Origin: Sneathiellales bacterium
Lineage (GTDB): Bacteria; Pseudomonadota; Alphaproteobacteria; JANQFL01
NCBI GenBank assembly: GCA_028277845.1
Contig: JANQFL010000117.1
Span: 1-64,000 of the forward strand
Direction of reading: 5' to 3'
DNA: 64,000 nt
Part shown: piece after piece, positions 35,302 to 42,806 of the stretch
Position numbering within the stretch: position 1 is the stretch's first letter
Layout of the letters: every line of letters begins with the position of its first letter
Translations under genes and position numbers: made by a program
The notes under the pieces: model-generated
The model's database searches: none
What the model was told of the DNA's origin: nothing
Seen by the model: the letters and a program-made list of their open reading frames with translations, nothing else

Positions 35302-35850
35302 CTATTCCTTGCCCGTGGGGTATTCGATCAGCATCAAGGTGAATCCCTTGCCGGGCCCCGACGCTTGCCACGCATATCCCGATTTCGTCTTGGTGTAGTA
35401 GACCGGCATGTAGCCGTTCGGACCGTGCCAGGATTCACACAGTGTCTGCTTGTTGCGATACCACTGCTTGTGCCAAATCTTGAAGTCCTTGAGCGGATGG
35501 ATTTCACCGTTTACCCAGACGAGTTTGCGAAACCGGCAAAAGAAACGCAGCCCGATCCACACCGGGTCCGCCGGCTGGAACGTCGACGTGACGAACTCGT
35601 GCGTCTGCTTGTCGCGAATGATCGCGAGTCTGCCCTTGGCTCCCTTATACCGTTTTGATTCGGCATATCTTTTGTGTACCGGCCAGGCAGGGTGGCCTTC
35701 CGGGATCTGCTTGAGTTCGAAATAGCTTTTCGTGTGCGGGAAATAGACCGGTTCATTCAGCAGCTGCCCTTTTTCGTCGCCGAAGCTCGGGACCGGTGAG
35801 CCGAGGACAAATCCAAAAAGGACCGCCAACAATATGGATCGCAAAAACAT
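35302..35850 (-). CDS. Small secreted protein of unknown function
   Basis: I do not recognise the family. The 182 residues start with a signal peptide (FLRSILLAVLFGFVLGSPVP, cut near SFG-DEK). The mature part is basic and aromatic, with several Trp, Tyr and His residues and three Cys (FFCRFRKLVW has the first, QTLCESWHGPNG the next). The Met at 35850 is chosen because the longer in-frame extension has no signal peptide and would run into the ligase gene. The gap to that gene is 116 bp. It may share a transcript with the lipoate operon, but nothing in it suggests a role there. Confidence 0.65.
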   Translation of the reverse strand: MFLRSILLAVLFGFVLGSPVPSFGDEKGQLLNEPVYFPHTKSYFELKQIPEGHPAWPVHKRYAESKRYKGAKGRLAIIRDKQTHEFVTSTFQPADPVWIGLRFFCRFRKLVWVNGEIHPLKDFKIWHKQWYRNKQTLCESWHGPNGYMPVYYTKTKSGYAWQASGPGKGFTLMLIEYPTGKE

Positions 35851-35966
35851 CGATCGCGCTCTCGAGTGCCTATCGTGATTCAAGGTATGGATCGTGCCAG
35901 AACCGCCACGGTTCCATTTCAATCCTATAATACAACGGTTAAAAAGTTGTAGAAAGGTGGTGTCCG

Positions 35967-37865
35967 TTACGTGTGAGGACGCATCGGATGCTGGTCGCGG
36001 TGCAATGCTACCGAAGTGTCGGACGCGGTATCGGAACTCATGATATTCCGGATGAATTGAGACGCGCTGTCCAGAACCGCGCGCCGGTTTTGATGGTGTG
36101 GCGCATGGCCACAGTGGGGCACGACAACACGCTGACACGGGTCGGACAGTAACTCTTCGATCCCATCCAACTGGTCTTCGGAAAAAAACTCATCGTCTTT
36201 GCCCTGCAGCAGCAATACCGGGCATTTGACTTTGGCCACATAGCTTTCGATACCCCAGCTGCCGGCCCCGTCCACGGTCCACGCTTCCACCAACCTCTGA
36301 AACAACCGTTCGGTCTTCGAGCCATGAAAGCGCTCGAGCCGGGCCTTCAGATCTCCGTTGCGGAAGTCATGAATCTGACGGTTGATTTCGGCCAATGTCT
36401 TGTCTTCGCGATAGATGTGCGGCGCCTCGGCGACGATCCCCCGGACACGGTCGGGATGAGCGCCGGCAAAGGTCAGGGCCATGGCGGCCCCATCCGAATG
36501 TCCGACCAGGATCGCCTGGTCGATCCGCGCGGCATCCAACACGCTTGGCAAGACTTCGAGGGCTTCTTCCAATATGTAGCCACGATGGAACGGCGGTTCG
36601 AGGGGATCGGAATCGCCGGCACCCAATCGGTCATAGACCAGGGCGGGCAATCCCGTGGCCTTGGCCAGGCGATGTGGAATATCCCGCCACATGCGGGCAC
36701 AGCCGAGCGCTTCGTGGAGAAAGACCAGGGTGGGCGCGTTCTTGGATTGGGTCCCGATCATATGACCGCGCAGGGTTTTACCACCTTCAACCGGGATGAT
36801 GAGCTGACGCACGGCGGCCGCGATCACATCGCGGAAATCCTCGGGTTCCAGGTTGACGAAGTCGGCGGTCGTTTCCTCGAAGAACGCAATAACGGTTTCC
36901 GGTGCCTGAGCCGTCTCGACACCGCGCAACCGTGCCTCCAGGTCGAACACCACGCGCGGCGGTGTGACGAAAAAGTCGCCTGTGATCAAGACCTCGCGGA
37001 TACGGTTGCGGTCGTGGCCTTCCAGCCGGATGTCCGCCCGCAACGTGCCGCCCCGTTTGGTGAGTGAAGCCGTCACGAGCGTGTCGTCGGCTTCCCGGGC
37101 ATCGATCATGGCGACGTAGTCGTCGGTGCCGATTTCCTCGTCGTATATTTCCCGCGCAAGCGTTTCTTCCGTGTCGGTGATTTCCCCGGGGACCGGCGTG
37201 ATCTCCAAGGCGTCGGCGAAGCCGTCCAGCAAGGCCTGTTTGATGGCCGGCACGTCGGGCAGGTCGTCGCCCAGCAGTTCGCGCAGGGTGACGACACGTT
37301 GGCGCGCCGAATCCAAATCCCGTTTGGCCAGTTTCTCGACCGGGACTTTCAGAGCGGCGATCATGTCGGCGGGATCGAAATCGATCAATAATGTGCCCTG
37401 ATAGAACAATGTCGAACCGTCGAAAAACCCGCCGGTGCCGCTGATCTTGCGGCCGTCGACCTCGATGTCGTTGCGCGGGCGGTATTGTGCGTCGACGCCC
37501 AGATTCCGTAAGCCCAGGGCCGCCGCTTCGCAGATGCGCCGGGTCAGTTCAGTAAGATCACTGATGCCGAGCGTCGCACGATCGAACACCAACTCCCAGC
37601 CGATCTGTCCTTCGTCCAGGTACAAACCGCCGCCACCGGTGATACGCCGGCCGATCTGGATATTACGGTCGCGACAATACTGCAGCCGTACTTCGTGATT
37701 GAGGATCTGATGCACGCCCACGAGGGCGCACGGCGGGAACTTGAGGAAGCGGATGGTGTCAGGGATGAAGTCCTGCTTGCGGGCGTCGATCAGCGCCTGG
37801 TCGAAGGCGATGTTCATGCGGGCGTCGCGCACGCCCGTATCGATCACCCGGAAGGACGGTCTCAT
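35967..37865 (-). CDS. Lipoate-protein ligase sLpl(AB) fused to an alpha/beta hydrolase
   Basis: One frame of 632 codons carries three parts. Residues 1-230 are a lipoate ligase catalytic domain: RRITGGGGLYLDEGQIGWEL (73-92) binds the acyl group, and Lys140 in DGRKISGTGGFF is the expected catalytic lysine. Residues ~235-355 match the LplB-like accessory domain. Residues ~362-608 are an alpha/beta hydrolase: LVFLHEALG oxyanion region, nucleophile Ser457 in GHSDGAAM, Asp557 or 558 in GKDDEFF, His587 in CGHAPHH. It is the last gene of the operon with two radical SAM genes and an FAD reductase. The ligase should attach octanoate or lipoate to carrier proteins. I know of no described hydrolase fusion; its role is open. 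Confidence 0.88.
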   Translation of the reverse strand: MRPSFRVIDTGVRDARMNIAFDQALIDARKQDFIPDTIRFLKFPPCALVGVHQILNHEVRLQYCRDRNIQIGRRITGGGGLYLDEGQIGWELVFDRATLGISDLTELTRRICEAAALGLRNLGVDAQYRPRNDIEVDGRKISGTGGFFDGSTLFYQGTLLIDFDPADMIAALKVPVEKLAKRDLDSARQRVVTLRELLGDDLPDVPAIKQALLDGFADALEITPVPGEITDTEETLAREIYDEEIGTDDYVAMIDAREADDTLVTASLTKRGGTLRADIRLEGHDRNRIREVLITGDFFVTPPRVVFDLEARLRGVETAQAPETVIAFFEETTADFVNLEPEDFRDVIAAAVRQLIIPVEGGKTLRGHMIGTQSKNAPTLVFLHEALGCARMWRDIPHRLAKATGLPALVYDRLGAGDSDPLEPPFHRGYILEEALEVLPSVLDAARIDQAILVGHSDGAAMALTFAGAHPDRVRGIVAEAPHIYREDKTLAEINRQIHDFRNGDLKARLERFHGSKTERLFQRLVEAWTVDGAGSWGIESYVAKVKCPVLLLQGKDDEFFSEDQLDGIEELLSDPCQRVVVPHCGHAPHHQNRRAVLDSASQFIRNIMSSDTASDTSVALHRDQHPMRPHT

Positions 37866-37886
37866 CTCGTGTCTTCCCCTCGCCCG

Positions 37887-39149
37887 TCAGTCGTCGCCGT
37901 CCATGCCTTCGAGGGCCAACTGCCGCCGCACCTTTTTGACGTCCTTCTTGTTCAGCTTGAAGGGATAGGACGCGATGTCGCTGGGCGGCGAGTCGCCGTA
38001 GGGCCGGTCGCAGGCGGAAATGTCCTCGGCTTCCTTGCCGGGACAGCCCGACGTGCGGAACGCCGTGCCGGCATCGATGACGGCCTGCAAGTCGCTCTCG
38101 GGCACGCCGAAATCGACCAGGCTGCCGCTCTCGTCGAAACGCATATTTTCCAGCCGGGCTTCGCGGTAGTCGATGAGATAGCGGGCCAGCTGCACCCGGC
38201 GCCACTGGGTGCGGGGCACCGGCGGCAGGTGGTCCATCAACGAGCCCTTCTCGGGGAAGAAGGCGAACATGTGGCTGTGGCCGCCCATGTCGCGCAGGTC
38301 CTGCACCACCTTGAGCACGTCGTATTCGCTCTCGCCCATGCCGACGATGATGTGGGCGCCGAATTTCTCCGGCCCGAAGATCTCGGCCGCCGCCTTCATG
38401 ACATCCCAGTACTTGTCCCAACTGTGCGGCGACTGCACGCCGCGCCCGCGGGTCTGGTCGAAGATGTCCGGATTGGCCGCGTCCAGCGCCACGGTGAAGA
38501 TCTCGGCGCCCAGGTCCTTGAGGTCCTGCACGTCCTGCCGCGCCATGGTGGTCGGATTGGACAGGATGGAGACCGGGATGTGGTCGATGCGCTCGGTCCA
38601 CTTGCGCAACACCGTGCGGGTGTCGTCGTCGGACCGGGGATGGGTGATCATGCTGATGCACATGCGGTGGAACTGGCCCTTGTCGCCGCCCGATTGGATG
38701 ATCTCCAGCACCTCGTCGTAGGGCACGGCCGGCCAGTCGACGCGGATGAAGTTGCGGTCGGCGTAGTCCCGCTCGGCTTCACGGTGACGGGCCAGGCCGC
38801 AGTAAGCACAGTTGGCGCGGCAGCCCTCGGGATAGGTCAGCAACAGGTTGAGGCAGCGTGTGCAGCCGGTGCGGTGCATCTTACCCGGCACGACACCCAG
38901 GGTGATGGCCGCTGCCGTCGACATCTGTACGTAATCGGGCGACTGCATGTAGGGCGTCAGCATGCGGTAGTCGGGCCGGTAAACGCCTTCCGGCCGGGCG
39001 CCGTCCGCCTTGACCCGGCCGCCGTTCTTCAGGTCCTGCGGCACCTGGGCCGGCGCCCGGGGCTTCATGGTTTCGGCGTCGTTGAAATCCTTTTTCGCCT
39101 TGCCCGTAAAGTCCGGTGCGGCATCGCGCGGAAATTCCAAACAGCTCAT
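37887..39149 (-). CDS. lipS2: Radical SAM protein, probable LipS2 lipoyl-synthase subunit
   Basis: The 420 residues contain the radical SAM cluster motif Cys110-x3-Cys114-x2-Cys117 (EGCRANCAYCGLARHR), preceded by a Cys96-x2-Cys99 pair (RTGCTRCLN) and followed by two more Cys near the C-terminus (TSGCPGKEAEDISACDRP); the extra cysteines could bind an auxiliary iron-sulfur cluster that donates sulfur. It is not classical LipA, which has a different Cys pattern. The operon order radical SAM - FAD reductase - radical SAM - lipoate ligase matches my recollection of the LipS1/LipS2 pathway. Which of the two radical SAM genes is LipS1 or LipS2 is assigned by order and is uncertain. Confidence 0.75.
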   Translation of the reverse strand: MSCLEFPRDAAPDFTGKAKKDFNDAETMKPRAPAQVPQDLKNGGRVKADGARPEGVYRPDYRMLTPYMQSPDYVQMSTAAAITLGVVPGKMHRTGCTRCLNLLLTYPEGCRANCAYCGLARHREAERDYADRNFIRVDWPAVPYDEVLEIIQSGGDKGQFHRMCISMITHPRSDDDTRTVLRKWTERIDHIPVSILSNPTTMARQDVQDLKDLGAEIFTVALDAANPDIFDQTRGRGVQSPHSWDKYWDVMKAAAEIFGPEKFGAHIIVGMGESEYDVLKVVQDLRDMGGHSHMFAFFPEKGSLMDHLPPVPRTQWRRVQLARYLIDYREARLENMRFDESGSLVDFGVPESDLQAVIDAGTAFRTSGCPGKEAEDISACDRPYGDSPPSDIASYPFKLNKKDVKKVRRQLALEGMDGDD

Positions 39150-39173
39150 TGCTCGTTTCCCTCGTTGCCGCCC

Positions 39174-40250
39174 TCAGGCGGCCCAATAGTCGTCATAGGC
39201 GATCCAACCCCGGCGCAAGTCCCGTGCGTCGGGTTGACATCCCCGGTCGTAAATCGACAGAAGTTCCCGCCGCCGCCGCACGGCACGGCCGAGCGAGGCA
39301 TCGAACAGGTCGGCCAGGTCTTCCTCGTATTCCTCCACGGACTCGAGATCGCCGGCCAGCAGTTGAACAACGGCACGCCCGGCCAGGGTGCCCGACTGCA
39401 CGGCCGCGGGGATGCCGGCGCCGGTCGCCGGATTGGTCAGGCCGGCGGCGTCACCGACCAGCAGCACCGGCGTCTCCCGCAGCCGGCCATGGGGCGTGAT
39501 GCGCCCGCCGACCGGTATAGGCCCACCGGTGTGTCCGAGGATGTCCGCCCCGACCCGGCCCGCCGCAACCAGCTCGGCATGCAACGTTTCGAGCAGCGGC
39601 TTCAACCGGTGCCGGTGCGCCGGTACGACGCCGAGGCCGAGATTGGCCTTGTCCCCCTTGGGAAACAGCCAGCCATAGCCGCCGACGATATCGGCGCGCA
39701 GAAAAATGTCGGTCGAGGAATTGCGGTCCTTGAGTGGCACGGTGATCTGCCGGGTCTCTACGATCTCCGTGTTCACGCATCCAATGGCCTGACCGACAAT
39801 GCTGCGGGGGCCATCGGCGCCAATGACGGCCCGGGCCCGTATGCGCGCACCGTCGCCCGCATGCACGGTGCCGTCCGCGTCGATGGCGGTGACGGCGACA
39901 CCGGAACGGCAGTCCACCCCGGCCCCCACCGCGCGCTCGGCCAGCATGCGGTCGAAGGACTCGCGATCGATGATGCGGCCAAGGAAATCGGGTTTGCGGT
40001 CCGGCGCATCGGCCTCGACCAGCGTGGTCATGTGGTCGATCGGCTGTGCCGTCACGCCCTCCAGCCGCTTGAGTTCCTGGTCCAGCATGGTGGGCACGAA
40101 TTCGGCGCACTGCACCGGCGCGCCGGGCGATTGCTTGCGGTCGAGGGCCATGACCGATAGATCGGGATTTGCCGTCTTCGCCGCATAGGCCGCACAGCTC
40201 CCCGCCGGGCCAAGACCGGCAATCAGGATATCGCAGTGCTCGTCGCGCAT
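39174..40250 (-). CDS. lipT: FAD-dependent geranylgeranyl-reductase-family protein, probable LipT
   Basis: The 358 residues begin with an FAD-binding motif (DILIAGLGPAGSCAAYAA), have AVIGADGPRS in the middle and LLVGDAAGLTNPATGAGIP near the end, the pattern of geranylgeranyl-reductase-like flavoproteins. No archaeal-type lipid genes are near; it lies inside the operon between two radical SAM genes and before a lipoate ligase. A flavoprotein of this family, called LipT, accompanies LipS1/LipS2 in sulfur-oxidising bacteria (recalled). It would supply electrons to the radical SAM enzymes (inference). Confidence 0.72.
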   Translation of the reverse strand: MRDEHCDILIAGLGPAGSCAAYAAKTANPDLSVMALDRKQSPGAPVQCAEFVPTMLDQELKRLEGVTAQPIDHMTTLVEADAPDRKPDFLGRIIDRESFDRMLAERAVGAGVDCRSGVAVTAIDADGTVHAGDGARIRARAVIGADGPRSIVGQAIGCVNTEIVETRQITVPLKDRNSSTDIFLRADIVGGYGWLFPKGDKANLGLGVVPAHRHRLKPLLETLHAELVAAGRVGADILGHTGGPIPVGGRITPHGRLRETPVLLVGDAAGLTNPATGAGIPAAVQSGTLAGRAVVQLLAGDLESVEEYEEDLADLFDASLGRAVRRRRELLSIYDRGCQPDARDLRRGWIAYDDYWAA

Positions 40251-40262
40251 CGTCTCTCGGTC

Positions 40263-41294
40263 TTAGGCGGCGCAGGCGCGCTGGCCGCCGACGCTGTCGA
40301 CCACCATGGAACAGCAGGCGTGCTGCTGATCGACCGGCCGGCCGATCGCCTCGGCCACCGCCTTCACCCCTTCCGCCGGAAACGCGATGCCGTCCAGGCC
40401 GGCCATCACGGCGTAGGTGTCGGTGACCAGTTTGTGGGCGCCCGCCGGCCGGGCACAGCCGAGCTGCACCGCCACGTCGGGCAAGGTCTGGCGCGACGCC
40501 ATGAACACGGCCGCCACGTCCCGGGTCGGCACGGTGGCGAACATGTCGGGCTTGGGCGCGTAAAACGGCATGACCACCACCAGCACCAGCGCGTCGACGC
40601 CATGGCGCGACACGATGTCGAGGGCGTTGTATTCGCCGAGGATGTCACCGTAATGCAGGCCGATGACGATATGCGGCACCACGTCCATCTTGGTCGACGC
40701 CAGCGCCGCCAGGGTCTGTTCGAAATCGTCCACCGGACGGTCGAGGTGATAGACCTGCTCGATGGTTTCCTGTGCGCCGATGACGTCCATCATGGCCACG
40801 TCGACGCCGGCCGATTCCATCAGCTTGGCCCGTTTCTCGTCCAGCAACGCGGAATGGATGGCGATCTTCAGGTCGGGGAAGTCCCGTTTCAACCCTTCCA
40901 CCACCGGATAATAGCGTTCATAGGGAATCTCGTTGCGCCGGTTGGACCCGCCCGACAGCAGAAAGCCGTTCAGGCCCTGCAGCATGATTAGGTCCCGCAC
41001 CTTGCGGTCCAGTTCCTCGGGCTTGGTTGCCGGGATCATCGGTTCCAGGATCTTGGCCTGACAGTGGTCGCAATCGAGGGCGCAGGCGGCACCGGTGATG
41101 GAAAAGGCCGGAAAGCTGTTCTTGCCGCAGCCCTGGATTTCCTCGGTGGCGTATTCCTTGAACGTGGGCGTGTGAAAACGGATCGGCCGGGCCGCAACGC
41201 TGTCGGCCGAACGCTCGAAGCCCGCGATGATGGCAGGGTCCAAGTCCAAATCGTCGAACGGGTCGATGTCCCGCACGGCGTCATACCAGCCCAT
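40263..41294 (-). CDS. lipS1: Radical SAM protein, probable LipS1 lipoyl-synthase subunit
   Basis: The 343 residues carry Cys71-x3-Cys75-x2-Cys78 (ACALDCDHCQAKI) for the SAM-bound cluster, a lone upstream Cys56 (IQGCGKNS) and three C-terminal cysteines (Cys327, Cys328, Cys341) that could hold a second cluster. A perfect AGGAGG precedes the ATG. It is the first gene of the four-gene minus-strand operon. Together with the other radical SAM protein it should insert two sulfur atoms into protein-bound octanoate. LipS1 against LipS2 is assigned by gene order only. The promoter lies in the 165-bp region shared with the reductive dehalogenase gene. Confidence 0.75.
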   Translation of the reverse strand: MGWYDAVRDIDPFDDLDLDPAIIAGFERSADSVAARPIRFHTPTFKEYATEEIQGCGKNSFPAFSITGAACALDCDHCQAKILEPMIPATKPEELDRKVRDLIMLQGLNGFLLSGGSNRRNEIPYERYYPVVEGLKRDFPDLKIAIHSALLDEKRAKLMESAGVDVAMMDVIGAQETIEQVYHLDRPVDDFEQTLAALASTKMDVVPHIVIGLHYGDILGEYNALDIVSRHGVDALVLVVVMPFYAPKPDMFATVPTRDVAAVFMASRQTLPDVAVQLGCARPAGAHKLVTDTYAVMAGLDGIAFPAEGVKAVAEAIGRPVDQQHACCSMVVDSVGGQRACAA

Positions 41295-41393
41295 GATGTC
41301 CTCCTGCGATTCTTTAAATCAGTATTCCCTAATATAAGAACCGCTTCAAGCATTTCGATCTTACGCCGTCGGTCGCTGGTACAAAAGCATCCA

Positions 41394-41428
41394 TGGACTC
41401 GTTATCGTTATAACGTTATAATGATAAC
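41394..41428 (+). promoter_or_regulatory. rdhA promoter overlapped by a 28-bp near-perfect palindrome
   Basis: TGGACT (41394-41399) and a consensus TATAAT (41417-41422) are 17 bp apart. The stretch 41401-41428 is a dyad with 13 of 14 base pairs matching; its core TTATAACGTTATAA (41408-41421) is perfect and its ends are GTTATC and GATAAC. The dyad covers the -10 and half the spacer, so a bound MarR dimer (encoded at 42799) would block RNA polymerase. The transcript would start near 41429, which rules out the ATG at 41421 as the start of the gene. Confidence 0.75.
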
Positions 41429-41459
41429 AACTTCGATCACGAACGCTGGGATGAAAGCC

Positions 41460-42806
41460 ATGCGTGTTTTCTCGCGAAAAAACCGCCCGGTGCATCTGGG
41501 GCCCTATCCGATGGAGAAGATCCGCCGGGTCGACGAACCGACGACGCTGATCATCGAGGACGAGGTCCAGCGTACGCCGCTGCGCGTCAACGGCTTCTTC
41601 CGGGCCGCCCACGGCGATTTCGGCGCCAAGGCGCAGACCGAGGTGAAGCGGTTCGTCAAGAAGGCACCCATTTCGGCCGCCATGGACCGGGTCATGAAGC
41701 AGTTGTGCAAGGTGCAGGATGGCGAGGTGGCGCCGGAGAAAGCGCCCATCACCAACGACCCGCGCAAACTGGCGGAGCACATGAAGGCCTTGTCCTATTT
41801 CCTCGATGCCGACCTGACCGGCATCTGCGAGGCCAGGGACTATTGCTGGTATTCCCATGACAAGCGCGGCGAACCGATCACGCCCTACCACAGATACGCC
41901 ATCGTCATGATCATCGACCAGGGCTTCGATACCATGGACGGCGCCAGCGGCGACGACTGGATTTCCTCGGCCCAGAGCTACCGCGCTTACATGCGCGGGG
42001 CGGAAATCGCCGATGTCATGGCGGGCTATATCCGCTCGTTGGGTTTCGGAGCCCGCGCCCACACCAACAAGGACAGCCATGTCCAGCACGTGCCGCTCAG
42101 CCTGCTGGCGGGCCTCGGCGAGATGAGCCGGATCGGCGAGATGATCCTCAACCCGTTCGTCGGCCCGCGCATGAAGACGGTCGTGGTCACCACCGACCTG
42201 CCGCTGGAGGTCGACAAACCCATCGATTTCGGCCTGCAGGATTTCTGCGACAAGTGCCGTAAGTGCGCCCGCGAATGCCCCTGCGGCGCGATCCCGTTCG
42301 GCGGCAAGATCATGTACAACGGCTACGAGACCTGGAAGCCGGATTCCGAGGCTTGCACCAAGTACCGCACCACCAACCCGCGCGGATCGGCCTGCGGACG
42401 CTGCATGAAGATGTGCCCGTGGAACAAGGAAGGCCTGATGCACCATCGCCTGGCCATGTGGGCGGCGATCAAGTGGCCCTTCACCCGGCGCTTCCTGATT
42501 TGGCTCGACGACAAATGGAAGTACGGGATGCGCAACAGCACCAAACGGTGGTGGCTCGACCTGGACACCGTCGACGGCCATGTGGTGCGGCCCGACGGCA
42601 TCAACGAACGCGATCTCAATCTGGGCCGGCGCATACCCGATGAAGACCGCACGGCGGTCTACACACCCGACCTGTGGCCGGCGCCCGACAACATGGCCAC
42701 CTTCCCCACCGACCGACGGGAGGGGCAGAAGAAGTTCAAGCAGGCGGAACGGCCGGAAGACGCCCGCCGCCGTCTCGAGTCGCAGGGCGCCGACACCCAT
42801 GTCTGA
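41460..42806 (+). CDS. Cytoplasmic cobalamin-dependent reductive dehalogenase
   Basis: With the ATG at 41460 the protein has 448 residues. Family marks: SYRAYMRGAEIADVMAGYIR with the expected catalytic Tyr (174 or 177), LSLLAGLGEMSRIG, VVVTTDLPLEVDKPIDFG, then two 4Fe-4S sites: Cys263, 266, 269, 273 and Cys299, 312, 315, 319. The part before ~260 is the corrinoid-binding region. There is no Tat signal and no rdhB, so it is a soluble, catabolic-type RdhA; unlike NpRdhA it has no fused reductase, so electrons must come from elsewhere. The stop overlaps the MarR start by 8 nt. The halogenated substrate is unknown. QueG was considered and rejected. Confidence 0.85.
   Translation: MRVFSRKNRPVHLGPYPMEKIRRVDEPTTLIIEDEVQRTPLRVNGFFRAAHGDFGAKAQTEVKRFVKKAPISAAMDRVMKQLCKVQDGEVAPEKAPITNDPRKLAEHMKALSYFLDADLTGICEARDYCWYSHDKRGEPITPYHRYAIVMIIDQGFDTMDGASGDDWISSAQSYRAYMRGAEIADVMAGYIRSLGFGARAHTNKDSHVQHVPLSLLAGLGEMSRIGEMILNPFVGPRMKTVVVTTDLPLEVDKPIDFGLQDFCDKCRKCARECPCGAIPFGGKIMYNGYETWKPDSEACTKYRTTNPRGSACGRCMKMCPWNKEGLMHHRLAMWAAIKWPFTRRFLIWLDDKWKYGMRNSTKRWWLDLDTVDGHVVRPDGINERDLNLGRRIPDEDRTAVYTPDLWPAPDNMATFPTDRREGQKKFKQAERPEDARRRLESQGADTHV

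Follow-up and report, generated by a model that had tools for sequence, protein, structure and literature searches.

The window, a stretch of 64,000 nucleotides from a Sneathiellales genome (G000), carries at 35967-41294 on the minus strand a lipS1-lipT-lipS2-slpl(AB) operon, in which four open reading frames of 343, 358, 420 and 632 amino acids follow one another with intergenic gaps of 12, 24 and 21 bases:

40263..41294, minus strand: lipS1, a radical SAM protein and one half of the lipoyl synthase (NCBIfam NF053742 LipS1, 196 bits, cut-off 230)
39174..40250, minus strand: lipT, an FAD-dependent reductase of the geranylgeranyl-reductase superfamily (TIGR02032, 180.6 bits, cut-off 158.8)
37887..39149, minus strand: lipS2, a radical SAM protein and the other half of the lipoyl synthase (NCBIfam NF053743 LipS2, 202 bits, cut-off 270)
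35967..37865, minus strand: an sLpl(AB)-hydrolase fusion of 632 aa in a single open frame (Pfam; same architecture in G195, G389, G394, G358 and G405)

The LipS1, LipS2, LplB and lipoate-ligase models are the best-scoring NCBIfam matches of these proteins, yet they stay under their curated cut-offs; LipS1 and LipS2 match at E about 1e-58, and the lipoate ligase model reaches 146.5 bits on the fusion protein against a cut-off of 280. Together with Pfam and the reading frames, these best matches bear out a sequence-only reading of the locus, which had recognised four minus-strand genes in the order of the sLpl(AB)-LipS1/LipS2 pathway. That reading had also pointed to a CxxxCxxC cluster and extra cysteines in both radical SAM proteins: the cluster lies at residues 71-78 of LipS1 and 110-117 of LipS2, and the extra cysteines are invariant, at C56, C280, C327 and C328 of LipS1 (17/17 sequences) and at C96, C99, C164, C369 and C380 of LipS2 (16/16). 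LipT, a homologue of which is found in most related clusters, is the probable electron donor.

On the other strand, a gene divergent from lipS1 (window 41064-42806, plus) has a product in which Pfam recognises a 4Fe-4S dicluster domain (Fer4_7) and which by eye resembles reductive-dehalogenase or epoxyqueuosine-reductase-type proteins; a MarR-like regulator follows just downstream. Directly 3' of the fusion gene, the product of window 35302-35874 (minus) is small, begins with a signal-like segment and matches the C-type lectin domain PF00059 (26 bits).

The fusion protein joins a complete bipartite ligase to a complete hydrolase, with the following parts:

37215..37826, minus strand: LplA catalytic domain, residues 14-217 (Pfam LplA-B_cat PF21948, 148.6-152 bits)
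36813..37046, minus strand: LplB accessory domain, residues 274-351 (NF053749 LplB, 40.6 bits, cut-off 65; match to PDB 3r07_C)
36048..36782, minus strand: alpha/beta hydrolase domain, residues about 362-606 (Pfam PF00561/PF12697)
36495-36497, minus strand: Ser457, the triad nucleophile, in the nucleophile elbow GHSDG
36192-36194, minus strand: Asp558, the triad acid
36105-36107, minus strand: His587, the triad histidine

The ligase carries the motif RRITGGGG at residues 73-80 and the catalytic Lys140, both noticed from the letters alone, and RRxTGGG and Lys140 are identical in all six fused ligases known to us from this analysis. The presence of the LplB stretch sets the protein apart from the single-domain LipB/LipM octanoyltransferases, and a separate LipB is encoded on contig C123 of the same genome. 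Likewise, the hydrolase recognised in frame after the accessory domain is indeed part of one 632-aa protein, where Pfam places Abhydrolase_1 and Abhydrolase_6 at about residues 378-598 with 75 and 55 bits. It has the nucleophile elbow and the Ser-Asp-His triad of a serine alpha/beta hydrolase, and Ser457, Asp558 and His587 are kept in 6/6 fused sequences and in 36/36 members of the hydrolase family. The triad acid had been given as Asp557/558; position 557 varies between D and E across the fused sequences while 558 is constant, which identifies Asp558 as the acid and removes Asp557. A fold model of the hydrolase built from three sequences was poor (mean pLDDT 51), and the PDB matches say only that it is an alpha/beta hydrolase, the nearest solved structure being 9l75 (E=1.9e-34), titled 'A novel PE hydrolase'.

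The three-part layout recurs in six genomes of three orders: G195, G389 and G394 belong to one, G358 and G405 to another, and G000 is the sole genome of its order in the set (loci L003 and L004 are apparently the same records as G195 and G394, which leaves six distinct genomes rather than eight). When one genome per species was scanned, two loci with the same layout came up, the second of which ends at a contig edge. A frameshift or missing stop at about codon 358 had been named as the finding that would undo the fusion; the same in-frame junction in five other genomes rules out a frameshift or assembly artefact. The hydrolase halves of the other fused copies are 53-58% identical to that of the window and form, with it, one clade (100/99). 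Since fused and unfused copies are parted in all four trees, the other three being those of LipS2 (100/99), LipS1 (99/99) and the ligase (95/94, an unrooted split), one fusion event, inherited together with the operon, explains the distribution. In the main text of the papers searched we found no lipoate ligase described as joined to a hydrolase, and the arrangement is apparently undescribed within a known lipoate pathway. A precedent for joining a lipoate ligase to a second enzyme of the lipoate pathway is NCBIfam NF053790 (LplA_LipA_fuse), in which the partner is LipA and no hydrolase is present; that model covers only the ligase half of the fusion (101 bits, cut-off 800).

The genome around the operon points to its substrate. 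A classical lipA lies within an ordinary pyruvate dehydrogenase operon, lipB is a separate gene, and a normal GcvH is also encoded; the idea that the genome might lack lipA and lipB is thus rejected, and the lip operon is not the cell's general lipoate pathway. The sequence-only reading had taken lipA and lipB, alongside a cluster serving something else, as grounds for abandoning it; both genes are there, yet the identity of the operon and the fusion hold. On contig C22 we found a second GcvH homologue, of the LbpA type, with DsrE, sHdrC1, B1, A, H, C2 and B2 upstream of it and a LipX-like gene nearby. The host is a sulfur-oxidising alphaproteobacterium. LbpA is encoded in 6/6 fused genomes, and in G195 and G389 LbpA, sHdrB2 and a DsrE2-type gene stand just upstream of lipS1 (the G389 cluster is split over two contigs). 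Two published studies (PMC10332631, PMC6067878) show that LbpA is left unmodified by the lipoylation enzymes of E. coli and of B. subtilis and requires sLpl(AB), and argue that both lipoylation systems are able to coexist. Given this dependence and the presence of LbpA in every fused genome, the lip operon most likely modifies the LbpA of the sHdr sulfur-oxidation pathway. A second ligase type, further removed from that of the window (about 29-35% identity), occurs at L033:8908-9981, L034:8976-10058, L035:8959-10035 and L036:9193-10293, where it adjoins DsrE, LbpA-type or shdr genes and where no lipS1 or lipS2 was found in the examined stretch; it is possibly another LbpA-modifying enzyme.

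The closest described counterpart is the lipS1-lipT-lipS2-slpl(AB) operon of Hyphomicrobium denitrificans, which (PMC10332631) encodes these four proteins in an identical order, together with sHdr genes, LbpA, a LipX-like gene and coexisting LipA and LipB. G000 has what marks an sLpl(AB)-LipS1/S2 system: the LipS1/LipS2 pair, an LplA plus LplB ligase linked to lipS1/lipS2, LipT, and LbpA/sHdr genes. Unlike H. denitrificans, its ligase carries the extra C-terminal alpha/beta hydrolase, and its lip operon is not beside the shdr-lbpA cluster, the two being on separate contigs.

The nearest stand-alone hydrolases in the class are 38-45% identical to the fused domain and share the GHSDG elbow and the triad. 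At 14 of the 20 loci examined they stand beside a benzoate-CoA ligase, a long-chain acyl-CoA ligase-like gene or box genes, and at 6 of the 20 a benzoate-CoA ligase lies immediately upstream on the same strand, with 24-101 bp between match ends; 17 control stretches contained no such CoA ligase or box gene. Judged by these neighbourhoods, the hydrolase family thus appears to pair with free-acid-activating enzymes. This genetic setting is also that of the box-pathway hydrolase, a predicted 3-hydroxyadipyl-CoA lactonase encoded beside bclA (PMC6449761). That enzyme stands alone with benzoate-CoA ligase, whereas the fused clade is separate and sits in a lipoylation operon; box genes or bclA accompany the unfused relatives alone, and none of the six fused copies has a box or CoA-ligase gene nearby. 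G000 has an unfused relative of its own (L067, contig C2, 6258-10866; 44% identical), in a cluster of box type that also encodes benzoate-CoA ligase, a flavodoxin and a BoxR-like regulator. Beside unfused lip clusters, no stand-alone hydrolase of the fused family was found in the loci searched; weak matches in L036 and L107 proved to be other alpha/beta hydrolases, with GHDFGG and GHDWGS instead of GHSDG.

Unfused operons have a hydrolase of another type. Of 12 alphaproteobacterial genomes with an unfused operon, 10 have a gene of the histone-deacetylase type (PF00850, 227 bits) as the immediate upstream neighbour of lipS1, its catalytic motifs being intact, for example at:

L028:5621-6811, PF00850 gene upstream of lipS1
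L099:4211-5290, PF00850 gene upstream of lipS1
L100:13021-14118, PF00850 gene upstream of lipS1
L104:4834-5880, PF00850 gene upstream of lipS1
L109:1916-3076, PF00850 gene upstream of lipS1

The ten proteins form one clade (100/100), which is not represented in any of the six fused genomes. A deacetylase on contig C19 of G000 (43% identical) was considered as a counter-example and set aside, as it groups with types unlinked to the lip operon (100/100); the five other fused genomes have only remote homologues or none. The main text of the sHdr and lipoate papers searched mentions no deacetylase, and H. denitrificans, by its published locus tags, apparently has a regulator gene at the position upstream of lipS1, so the deacetylase partner is common and not universal. 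The lip pathway thus appears to be regularly accompanied by a hydrolase, which was exchanged for another type at the fusion. As the swap happened once, the correlation between deacetylase and fusion is a lead and no statistical proof.

We tentatively favour a reading in which the fused hydrolase releases the free C8 acid that the ligase in the same chain needs, in an operon dedicated to LbpA. Octanoate release, editing and recycling had each been suggested in the sequence-only reading, and the present observations serve to rank them. By analogy with studied relatives, the ligase half would activate free octanoate or lipoate with ATP and attach it to the LbpA lysine, and LipS2 and LipS1, fed by LipT, would then insert the two sulfurs. 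The C-terminal domain, predicted to be an active serine hydrolase, would cleave a bound donor, for example octanoyl-ACP or octanoyl-CoA, to free its octanoyl or lipoyl group; donor, freed acid and possible channelling are all proposed. The sLpl(AB) ligases that have been characterised accept nothing but free octanoate or lipoate and have no octanoyltransferase activity (PMC10332631, PMC6067878). Free acid must therefore come from some source, and the passages used of those papers name no cellular origin for it. This need, and the company that the hydrolase relatives keep with acid-activating ligases, are what favour acid supply; the intact triad, the title of 9l75 and the full sHdr-LbpA set of the genome are consistent with it. 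Against it, the box relatives of the hydrolase are predicted lactonases (PMC6449761), the LipB of G000 already draws on octanoyl-ACP, and unfused operons function without the domain, H. denitrificans lipoylating its LbpA by an unfused ligase. More doubtful is the stronger form, in which the fusion would be a self-contained machine for de novo octanoyl transfer, octanoate being freed from octanoyl-ACP or octanoyl-CoA and handed to the ATP-dependent ligase domain. Such a hydrolase-then-ligase pair would take two steps in place of LipB's single transfer and, as a LipB substitute, would answer where sLpl(AB) systems get their free acid.

It is possible, if somewhat less probable than acid supply, that the hydrolase acts after the ligase, removing wrong, incomplete or dead-end acyl groups (e.g., octanoyl or mono-thiolated octanoyl) from the LbpA lysine, or stripping lipoyl for reuse. 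Histone-deacetylase-type enzymes hydrolyse acyl-lysine amides, so if, as it appears, the fused hydrolase took the place of such a gene, this would speak for deacylation, and the replaced gene fits editing at least as well as it fits acid supply. On the other hand, alpha/beta hydrolases of this kind usually act on esters and thioesters rather than amides, the relatives of this one accompany CoA-thioester pathways, and the correlation rests on that one evolutionary swap. An incomplete mercaptooctanoyl-LbpA, which editing might clear, is described from a heterologous host (PMC10332631).

We consider it unlikely that the hydrolase is a tolerated passenger, taken by chance fusion from an unrelated metabolism of aromatic esters or CoA lactones. 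Its closest unfused relatives do belong to benzoate metabolism; nevertheless, the triad is kept in all fused copies despite their divergence from the window's, and the single fused clade spans three orders. It is very improbable that the domain acts like human ABHD11 and cleaves S-acyl thioesters formed on reduced lipoyl groups: we know of no acyl intermediates carried by LbpA, and orthology to ABHD11 is rejected on sequence, the bacterial ABHD11-like esterase model PRK10673 (which we take to be YbfF) matching at 26 bits (cut-off 399) and ABHD11 being absent among the PDB matches listed. ABHD11 removes glutaryl adducts from lipoate (PMC12643935); as an alpha/beta hydrolase with lipoyl proteins as its substrates it shows that the fold is capable of such work, but it belongs to a different sequence family and is unfused to a ligase.

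Whether the hydrolase supplies the acid, as we tentatively favour, or edits the product is the question that the fusion raises. Two unrelated kinds of hydrolase attached to one ligase pathway, one in the ligase chain itself and the other in the unfused operons, suggest that acyl release is part of the pathway, and that hydrolysis may be a regular but overlooked step in the lipoylation of LbpA.
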